29,598 nucleotides of DNA from a virus. A model generated the notes under the pieces. That model was not told where the DNA came from. It ran no database searches and worked only from the letters and a program-made list of their open reading frames with translations. The position numbers were made by a program, and so were the translations under genes. Below are positions 2,204 to 3,733 of the stretch, piece by piece (the stretch's first letter is position 1; each line of letters opens with the position of its first letter). The stretch is from the IMG/VR virus record IMGVR_UViG_3300025413_000092, positions 1 through 29,598 of that record; one strand, given 5' to 3'.

Positions 2204-2800
2204 TTAGTTACTCAATACTTTCTTTTTTGAATCTGCCCATACTTGAGTCTTTGAAGCTTTAGCAAATCGTTCAGTAGGAAGCCAAAGTGCAATGTCCCAT
2301 TCAGAAGGAAAGATATACATAAACTTCGACTGCATATGGTTAAATAGATATTGCTTCACACAAGGCTCGAAATATCTAAATTTAGCAGCACTGTTTAGTG
2401 TCTGATAACTGATTCTAAGTCTTGTTGATTCATCATACCTACTATTTATTCGAGTACCATATAAGGCATCCATAAGTTTAGCTCTAAGTTCTAAAGGTAG
2501 ATAGTGTAGATTAATGCCCCAGAATCTACCTCGTTCAATCTTGAAAGGGAAAATTAGAGGCGCTCTATCGTAGTAAGGTAGCGTATCTTTATGTTTAGGG
2601 TCATAGAGATACATATACATCGCACCTGGCTTGATCACTTTAGTAATTCGATCTGAATCCGAGTTGATAAGCTGACGCTCATTAATGCGACCTTGCTTTG
2701 ATGCAATCTCTCTATACCACTTACGTGCTTCTTCAGTTCGAGCAGGAACCTTGCCCGCACGGATACCTTTTGTGATTAGTTCGTCAAATATATTAGCCAT
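2204..2800 (-). CDS. Conserved 198-aa T4-like virion protein; possible DNA end protector (gp2-like)
   Basis: The product is 198 aa and basic. It begins MANIFDELITKGIRAGKVPART and includes MYMYLYDPKHKDTLPYYDRAPLIFPF, then INLHYLPLELRAKLMDALY and a C-terminal WDIALWLPTERF segment. I see no enzyme motif, signal peptide or membrane segment. From memory, proteins with this signature are conserved in T4-like marine phages next to gp4 and are sometimes labelled DNA end protector (gp2). The gp4 neighbour fits, because T4 genes 2 and 4 are adjacent, but T4 gp2 is longer (about 274 aa) and I cannot show homology from sequence alone. The ATG overlaps the gp4 stop (TAATG), so the two are translationally coupled. 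The gene is certain; the function is not. Confidence 0.55.
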   Translation of the reverse strand: MANIFDELITKGIRAGKVPARTEEARKWYREIASKQGRINERQLINSDSDRITKVIKPGAMYMYLYDPKHKDTLPYYDRAPLIFPFKIERGRFWGINLHYLPLELRAKLMDALYGTRINSRYDESTRLRISYQTLNSAAKFRYFEPCVKQYLFNHMQSKFMYIFPSEWDIALWLPTERFAKASKTQVWADSKKKVLSN

Positions 2801-3237
2801 TAAAATAGATCATCCTCGGTAATCTTGATAAATTCCCAACCTCGGTCAGCACAGTATTGTTCAGCCATTTTCCATTTTGCAGAATTCACACCCCATGTAG
2901 CAACTTCATTGATATAGCGCTTGGTAGCCTTTGTTTGTACTTTTGGTGGAACTGTTTGTGCTTTAGGTTTGACTTCAATTAGAAATGCTTTCGTTTTTCC
3001 ATCTTTGTCTTTACGTCTCATGAAAAAGTCAGGATAGTATCTGTGTATTCTATTATCTATAGGTGAACGATAAGGAATAATAATTTCTTCACTGGAATAC
3101 TCCAAAACATCTGGGTGAGCATCAAAATACATTAAAACTTTTAACTCCCAAGATGATCTGTAAATTATATTAGTTGGGTCACCTTTATATTTATCAGGAT
3201 TTTTTGGTTTAAATTTACCTTGATAATATTTAGCCAT
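2800..3237 (-). CDS. gp4: Head-completion nuclease, T4 gp4 homologue
   Basis: The product is 145 aa (T4 gp4 is 150 aa). The start, MAKYYQGKFKPKNPDKYKGD, is typical of the family. A PD-(D/E)xK nuclease signature is visible: Glu31 in YRSSWE, Asp70 in YYPDFF, and Glu88-x-Lys90 in FLIEVK. The fold is related to TnsA-type endonucleases. In T4, gp4 finishes the filled head, probably by trimming or sealing DNA at the portal before tail joining. It is the first full gene of the leftward unit, downstream of a late promoter box at 3330-3323. An AGGTGG-like Shine-Dalgarno lies 6 nt before the ATG and is itself the end of an 18-codon leader ORF (3240-3296) that repeats the gp4 start. Only 2 nt separate leader stop and gp4 ATG. 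Confidence 0.9.
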   Translation of the reverse strand: MAKYYQGKFKPKNPDKYKGDPTNIIYRSSWELKVLMYFDAHPDVLEYSSEEIIIPYRSPIDNRIHRYYPDFFMRRKDKDGKTKAFLIEVKPKAQTVPPKVQTKATKRYINEVATWGVNSAKWKMAEQYCADRGWEFIKITEDDLF

Positions 3238-3296
3238 GTTTAGCCACCTTTGTATTTATTCGGATTCTTAGGGATAAATTTTCCTTTGTAAGCCAT
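3235..3296 (-). repeat. Diverged tandem copy of the gp4 5' end
   Basis: The leader segment 3296-3240 and the first 60 nt of gp4 (3237-3178) encode near-identical peptides side by side. The copies share the frame-relevant pattern GKF-P-K-N-P-(N/D)-K-Y-K-G. This is direct evidence of a partial tandem duplication or of mosaic joining of two gp4 alleles. Confidence 0.75.
3240..3296 (-). CDS. 18-codon leader ORF duplicating the N-terminus of gp4
   Basis: The frame reads MAYKGKFIPKNPNKYKGG and stops with TAA. Aligned to gp4 residues 1-20, 14 of its 18 residues are identical after a two-residue gap. The codons differ at many synonymous positions (for example CCT/CCA, AAG/AAA, TAC/TAT), so it is not a fresh duplication. 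It ends 2 nt before the gp4 ATG and its last codons supply gp4's Shine-Dalgarno. No strong Shine-Dalgarno precedes its own ATG (only GGGTAA-like bases, just downstream of the expected transcript start). It could be a translated leader peptide coupling into gp4, or the remnant start of an older gp4 copy after recombination. The sequence similarity is direct; the role is unknown. Confidence 0.6.
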   Translation of the reverse strand: MAYKGKFIPKNPNKYKGG

Positions 3297-3308: not shown

Positions 3309-3316
3309 TATAAATA
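3309..3316 (+). promoter_or_regulatory. T4-type late promoter (rightward), TATAAATA
   Basis: A perfect TATAAATA lies in the short intergenic gap, 41 nt upstream of the GTG at 3350. T4 late promoters need only this -10 element, read by the gp55 sigma factor with the sliding clamp. The expected start of transcription is about 3322. It would drive the rightward gp48-gp53-hub operon. Confidence 0.82.
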
Positions 3317-3322
3317 AAGATA

Positions 3323-3330
3323 TATTTATA
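3323..3330 (-). promoter_or_regulatory. T4-type late promoter (leftward), TATAAATA
   Basis: The plus strand reads TATTTATA, so the minus strand carries a perfect TATAAATA. The expected leftward transcript start is about 3317, roughly 20 nt before the leader ATG at 3296 and 80 nt before gp4. Only 6 bp separate this box from the rightward box, and each predicted start falls next to the other promoter's box. Confidence 0.75.
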
Positions 3331-3349
3331 AAAACTAAAGGAACAATTC

Positions 3350-3733
3350 GTGGCATTCAATGTCAATGACTACATTAAAAGTTCTAGTAAATCTCCAACT
3401 CAACGAATAGTTGATACAGTTGTTGCAAGTACTACTTCTGGCACTACTTCGGGTACTCTAACTTCAGCACAGTCTACTGCACAAGTTCTTTTGACTGTTG
3501 GTTCTTCATACCAGTCAATTTCTGCTTCTACATCATCTCAGACTGATAATCTACTTTCAAGTGCTGCTGATGCTTTCTTTGCTCTGGCTGGTAAGAATAC
3601 AAGCAGAGCAACAAAGACTTCAATTTTGAATATGCGCGTCCCAGATGGAACTGAAGTAAGTAAGATGACCCCTGCTGGTAAAATTGGCGCCGCAAAGAAG
3701 AATAACGAAATTCAAATCATAACGGTGCGATAA
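3350..3733 (+). CDS. Small Ser/Thr-rich protein of unknown function, first gene of rightward unit
   Basis: The product is 127 aa from a GTG start; AAAGGA lies 7-8 nt upstream and the late promoter at 3309 just before that. The middle (about residues 25-75) is rich in Ser, Thr and Ala (TTSGTTSGTLTSAQSTAQ), suggesting a flexible or fibrous segment. The C-terminus is basic (KMTPAGKIGAAKKNNEIQ). There is no signal peptide, membrane segment or known motif that I recognise. Its stop overlaps the start region of the gp48-like gene (ATAATG), so it is probably a virion or tail-assembly protein made together with the tube cap. I do not recognise the family. Confidence 0.7.
   Translation: MAFNVNDYIKSSSKSPTQRIVDTVVASTTSGTTSGTLTSAQSTAQVLLTVGSSYQSISASTSSQTDNLLSSAADAFFALAGKNTSRATKTSILNMRVPDGTEVSKMTPAGKIGAAKKNNEIQIITVR

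Follow-up and report, generated by a model that had tools for sequence, protein, structure and literature searches.

In fungal mitochondria, mobile ORFs (mORFs) create hybrid genes, as in atp6 of Allomyces and atp6, atp9, cox2 and nad3 of Glomus. An endonuclease gene enters an essential gene together with a foreign C-terminus, and the native end is left behind, where it remains nearer to the sequences of the closest relatives than the end in use (PMC3630166). For T4-like phages, the portion of PMC2988022 drawn on here describes free-standing homing endonucleases (seg, mob) that lie between genes or split genes into two working parts, as in Aeh1 nrdA and T4 gene 60. In ICP1, the part of PMC10448857 used here places nuclease genes at the boundaries of genetic exchange between phages.

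The locus described here lies at the start of gp4, a phage head completion gene, and it shares with the fungal mORFs a displaced native end that is kept and is closer to relatives than the active end is. It differs in that the C-terminus is replaced there, while the N-terminus is replaced here, and in phages. The endonuclease between the native and inserted ends of the fungal genes has no counterpart in our window (the whole stretch of 29,598 nt that was analyzed, IMG/VR record IMGVR_UViG_3300025413_000092), but it has one in the IMG/VR relatives L003, L009, L147 and L148 and in the cultured Stenotrophomonas phage Marzo. With the T4-like free-standing endonucleases the locus shares mobile nucleases beside essential genes and conversion tracts in the flanks, and the L009 insert is of the GIY-YIG kind; what sets it apart is that a complete target gene is rebuilt, with a dead stub left behind, and the same portion of PMC2988022 does not describe regeneration of a target gene's start. 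The tie between homing nucleases and exchange near essential genes resembles ICP1, for which the cited part of PMC10448857 describes neither a displaced gene start nor rescue of the target gene. In the literature searched we found no description of an insertion that brings its own replacement, either in phages or at a gene's 5' end; the open-access papers covered mention no homing element in gp4, which is weak evidence of absence.

Features of the window and of the related fusion genes are collected in Table 1. The preliminary description had reported a leader ORF that repeats the gp4 N-terminus and ends 2 nt before gp4, and both points are borne out. Read on the minus strand, the leader runs from an ATG at 3296 to a TAA at 3242-3240, and its likeness to the gp4 N-terminus exceeds chance (BLOSUM62 score of 71; the best of 20,000 shuffled leaders scored 51); gp4 also matches the leader independently (E 1.3e-4). 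The lower bound first given, 3178, takes in the leader plus the first 20 codons of gp4. A sequencing error is ruled out, as the same leader recurs in two more IMG/VR contigs, assembled from other metagenomes, which overlap the window by 3,429 and 8,644 nt with 2 and 3 mismatches and no gaps. The three leader-bearing contigs are near-identical, and we count them as one lineage.

Table 1. Positions of the leader, gp4 and associated elements in the window, and of zinc-finger/gp4 fusion genes in relatives
Feature	Position	Strand	Remarks
Leader ORF	3240..3296	minus	18 codons plus TAA, encoding MAYKGKFIPKNPNKYKGG-stop; read as the displaced resident gp4 5' end (stub)
Junction	3238..3239	minus	AC (2 nt), from leader stop to gp4 ATG; from the sequence; insertion point in relatives
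gp4	2800..3237	minus	145 aa; head completion protein; TnsA-like PD-(D/E)XK nuclease fold
Putative foreign gp4 5' segment	3052..3237	minus	about codons 1-62; begins MAKYYQGKFKPKNPDKYKGDPTNIIYRSSWELKVLMYFD; boundary approximate
T4-type late promoter element	3323..3330	minus	TATAAATA; would serve leader and gp4; from a pattern scan
Likely gp4 Shine-Dalgarno	3244..3251	minus	AAAGGTGG; part of the leader's final codons, with 6-7 nt between it and the ATG
Zinc-finger/gp4 fusion ORFs	L147:1211-2158; L148:2989-3936

The identity of gp4 is supported by matches to PF08722 (E 6.5e-23) and to the head closure family PHROG 218 (E 1.3e-57). Both the fold and the active-site residues are those of a TnsA-like nuclease, with E31, D70, E88 and K90 invariant in an alignment of 13 homologues. 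A nuclease fold has been predicted for T4 gp4 (PMC1189080), and a nonspecific DNase activity needed for packaging has been reported for it (Benler et al. 2020, as cited in the part of PMC7824862 used here); the TnsA-like fold and the conserved acidic and lysine residues are common to T4 gp4 and the gp4 proteins studied here. Neither the gp4 profile nor the inserts of relatives gave a significant match when searched by sequence against the PDB.

The leader is best understood by comparison with phages in which gp4 is uninterrupted. In the sister loci L004-L007, gp4 itself begins at the leader's position, behind the same late promoter, with the N-terminus MAYKGKF[ST]PKNPNKYKG. The window leader matches the native gp4 start of L004 and L005 at 47/54 nt, ungapped and in register with the same promoter, while it matches its own downstream gp4 at 43/54 and then only with a 6-nt gap. 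Because leader and promoter together are orthologous to the gp4 5' end of these uninterrupted sisters, we take the leader to be the resident gp4 start. A 24-nt pattern around the promoter, sought in all of IMG/VR, matches only the window copies, L003-L007 and L009. The gp4 now in use in the window begins MAKYYQGKFKPKNP. Its start, like those of the downstream gp4 genes of L003 and L009, is of another type, MA[KR]YYQG or MSKYHQG, and starts of the window's own type are native in L012, L049 and L066. Over codons 23-42, the window gp4 agrees with L009 at 53/60 nt and with L003-L006 at just 34-43/60; from about codon 63 onward, L003-L006 are as near as L009. The window's foreign tract is thus nearest to that of L009, which retains an endonuclease. 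From these alignments, two gp4 alleles have almost certainly been joined in the window. Such a join was one of two possibilities raised in the preliminary description, and it is strongly supported, with the leader as the resident 5' end and the gp4 5' end as the foreign one. A tandem duplication of gp4's own 5' end would also account for the resemblance of the leader to the gp4 start, but we give it a practically negligible probability: the leader is nearer to the native start of other phages than to its own supposed copy, and promoter and leader jointly track the sister phages. We therefore reject self-duplication as contradicted by the leader comparisons.

Detached gp4 starts are rare, and nearly all of them sit beside a mobile gene. 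When all 225 fetched gp4-bearing loci (a redundant set) were scanned with a profile of the gp4 N-terminus, stubs appeared nowhere but in the window lineage, L003, L009, L147 and L148, and each resembles its own resident gp4 allele; identity of the stub to the native gp4 start is 51/54 in L003, 52/54 in L009 and 47/54 in the window. In L003, L009, L147, L148 and Marzo an inserted module lies at the position that corresponds to the window's junction. The ends of the stubs vary from about codon 3 to about codon 27, and relatives carry inserts of two or more unrelated kinds, so several separate events are needed. These recurrent insertions point to the gp4 5' end as an insertion hotspot.

We consider the window's leader to be, most likely, a scar left by a homing element that targeted gp4, carried a replacement gp4 5' end and has since been lost. 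In an ancestor, the element would have inserted near the 5' end of the resident gp4 reading frame, within the first ~3-27 codons, and would have brought its own replacement 5' end, such that the essential gene stayed whole while its resident promoter and opening ~18 codons were left upstream as a stub. Later loss of the mobile gene between stub and gp4 would have left the stub's stop 2 nt ahead of the new gp4 start. Transcription would still proceed from the resident late promoter, and the last codons of the stub would now supply the Shine-Dalgarno of gp4. The two-allele join, the inserts of relatives and the conversion tracts can be read from the sequences themselves; cleavage, homing and a past element in the window lineage are what we infer, and the loss is deduced from relatives because the window represents a single lineage. 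We class the window as a scar rather than an intact element because a homing-endonuclease gene is present at the site in relatives (L009, L003) and absent from the window.

The main rival is a plain allele swap, in which the resident gp4 5' end became linked to the complete gp4 of another T4-like phage through illegitimate or microhomology recombination, and no homing element was ever in the lineage. The window's junction is clean, with no element remnant or endonuclease visible and a gap of just 2 nt between stub and gp4; GGCTAAA stands on both sides of it, which permits a microhomology join, and the insert-free phages L012, L049 and L066 carry gp4 starts of the MAKYYQG type. We nonetheless regard a swap as rather unlikely: at all four other stubs a mobile-nuclease gene occupies the junction, and a lone insert-free stub is therefore more simply a loss.

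The inserts of L003 and L009 differ in kind and orientation. In L003, the promoter is followed by the stub MAYKGKFSPKNPNKYKGDPTNILENRK-stop, an ORF of 233 aa and gp4; the start of the ORF overlaps the stub's stop (ATGA at 289-292), and the gp4 ATG falls within the ORF's last codons. This insert matches the homing-endonuclease family phrog_3339 (E 2e-4) over the DNA-binding part only, and it is the same zinc-finger module as in L147, L148 and Marzo. In L009, the order is promoter, stub (...KYKGDPIIF-stop), a reverse-strand endonuclease, a TATAAATA of its own, and gp4. Here the insert is a homing endonuclease of GIY-YIG/NUMOD3 type (phrog_314, E 2.7e-11) whose GIY-YIG relatives occupy many other genomic sites; those in Cr30 and in Vibrio phage SRILMA are neither recognizably at gp4. 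The additional late promoter lies between the endonuclease and gp4 (L009:2920-3000), and the element looks as if it brought promoter and gene start together. Within L009 gp4, the sequence turns from window-like to L005-like, with agreement to L005 at 77/114 nt over codons 5-42 and 180/195 over codons 63-127, and on this alignment the switch is the end of a conversion tract. Conversion tracts adjoin the insert in both L009 and Marzo. Separately, in Vibrio phage VB_VaC_SRILMA (L141:2384-4074) a gene annotated as a 'head-tail adaptor' overlaps a match to a GIY-YIG homing endonuclease, with a second adaptor gene directly downstream, an arrangement that may represent a similar invasion of another neck gene.

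Marzo provides an independent case, in a cultured phage. A search of 50,697 phage records with the L003 ORF gave a single match, directly ahead of Marzo gp4, where the module gene is unannotated (L140:2498-3109; MZ326868.1) and uses the original start codon of gp4. Marzo and its sister Mendera are identical at 383/400 upstream positions, up to the gp4 start codon. The module captures gp4's ATG AGC CA and extends over ~200 codons; after it comes a regenerated start of gp4, and the stub is vestigial. The annotated gp4 downstream of the module is diverged over codons 1-48 (110/144 versus Mendera) and then matches at 338/345; where the diverged tract can be aligned, it has 11 synonymous and 3 nonsynonymous codon changes. 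A second sister pair gives a corresponding picture, in that the uninterrupted L155 aligns to L147 both before and after the insert, and the two alignments overlap briefly, by the duplicated gp4 codons. Because both pairs, L147/L155 and Marzo/Mendera, could be compared, the insertion itself is seen directly.

L147 and L148, which were found with a profile of the L003 and Marzo proteins, have an upstream gp4 stub followed by an ORF of 315 aa that joins the zinc-finger module and gp4 in a single reading frame. These are the only in-frame modules among the 225 loci, and neither contig (fragments of 5.0 and 36.0 kb) carries a second full gp4. Compared with the T4 gp4 nuclease, the gp4 of these phages gains ~170 aa of N-terminal zinc-finger module. 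The zinc ligand positions C5, C8, H21, C44, C47, C64 and C68 are invariant in L003, L147, L148 and Marzo. We found no nuclease domain within the module and no separate nuclease beside the L147 and L148 fusions. In IMG/VR the module occurs only in L003, L147 and L148; among phages it is found in Marzo, with weak matches in pv27, the Vibrio K362 group and Escherichia IME392, and the search of bacterial genomes found none. A structural model of the L148 fusion (mean pLDDT 76, pTM 0.54) matches a zinc finger over its first 35 residues (Z 4.5, rmsd 1.4), and its gp4 half matches TnsA (Z 10.0) and, more weakly, Vsr (Z 5.7). The likeness of that half to the catalytic domain of the homing endonuclease I-Bth0305I, which has a Vsr-like fold, is weak (Z 4.8, rmsd 3.4, 83 residues), TnsA being much nearer, and unlike I-Bth0305I, the L148 module is joined to a structural gene. 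Ahead of the fusion's Shine-Dalgarno, L148:2895-2992 holds TATAAATA and then a strong GC-rich hairpin (z -3.1), which may control the timing of module translation. In L008 (positions 1-90), an open frame extends upstream of gp4 (SGLMQQAGNRTMRHQFRLKAIENPNKYKGD) without a normal gp4 start, and the contig ends 63 nt upstream; this is possibly a third fusion.

The L147 and L148 fusions suggest a predicted natural zinc-finger nuclease made from an essential phage protein, of which we found no report in the literature searched. Extending this, we raise as a tentative possibility that a selfish DNA-binding module without a nuclease borrows that of gp4, either fused to it (L147, L148, possibly L008) or encoded directly ahead of it (L003, Marzo), and would thereby steer this essential, otherwise nonspecific nuclease to cut element-free gp4 alleles while the recoded 5' end keeps the phage viable. 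Such an element would amount to a natural zinc-finger nuclease combined with a home-and-rescue drive, and the window would be an allele that lost it.

Whatever its origin, the leader could have a present role. The minus-strand TATAAATA, 27 nt before the leader start, is the sole consensus copy on that strand of the window, and because it precedes the leader, the leader is probably transcribed with gp4. A plus-strand copy (3309) lies near the minus-strand one (3330), and the two form back-to-back late promoters (window 3309-3350) that serve gp4 and a gene starting with GTG at 3350. The gp4 Shine-Dalgarno has a duplex energy of -7.4 kcal/mol, the third strongest anti-Shine-Dalgarno match among 20 window genes; that of the leader's own start is weak (-3.9). 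Since the stub's last codons give gp4 its Shine-Dalgarno, coupling of gp4 translation to that of the stub is plausible. One could go further and propose a functional leader peptide or translational-coupling device selected to regulate gp4, an idea to which this Shine-Dalgarno, the 2-nt spacing from stop to start, and the stop/start overlaps that likewise chain stub, module and gp4 in L003 all lend some weight. We judge it very unlikely. The preliminary description had proposed selection on the peptide and suggested looking for the same leader in relatives, yet it is absent from the uninterrupted L004-L007, L010 and L011 and from the other loci examined, and the stubs end differently from case to case, leaving that proposal unsupported. 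The codon differences between the window leader and L004 (3 synonymous, 2 not) are too few for a test of selection. The RNA of the leader region has no unusual structure (z -0.10), by which a structured attenuator is rejected, as is an intron or other structured RNA, with no Rfam match at gathering score in the window, L003, L008, L009, L140, L147 or L148.

For annotators, these observations account for odd short ORFs ahead of gp4. The zinc-finger/gp4 fusions make a sharp claim on how a mobile element could acquire a nuclease. More broadly, a mobile gene can live in an essential phage gene by bringing a recoded replacement for the part that it breaks, a logic known from fungal mitochondrial genes, at their 3' ends, and from engineered home-and-rescue gene drives.
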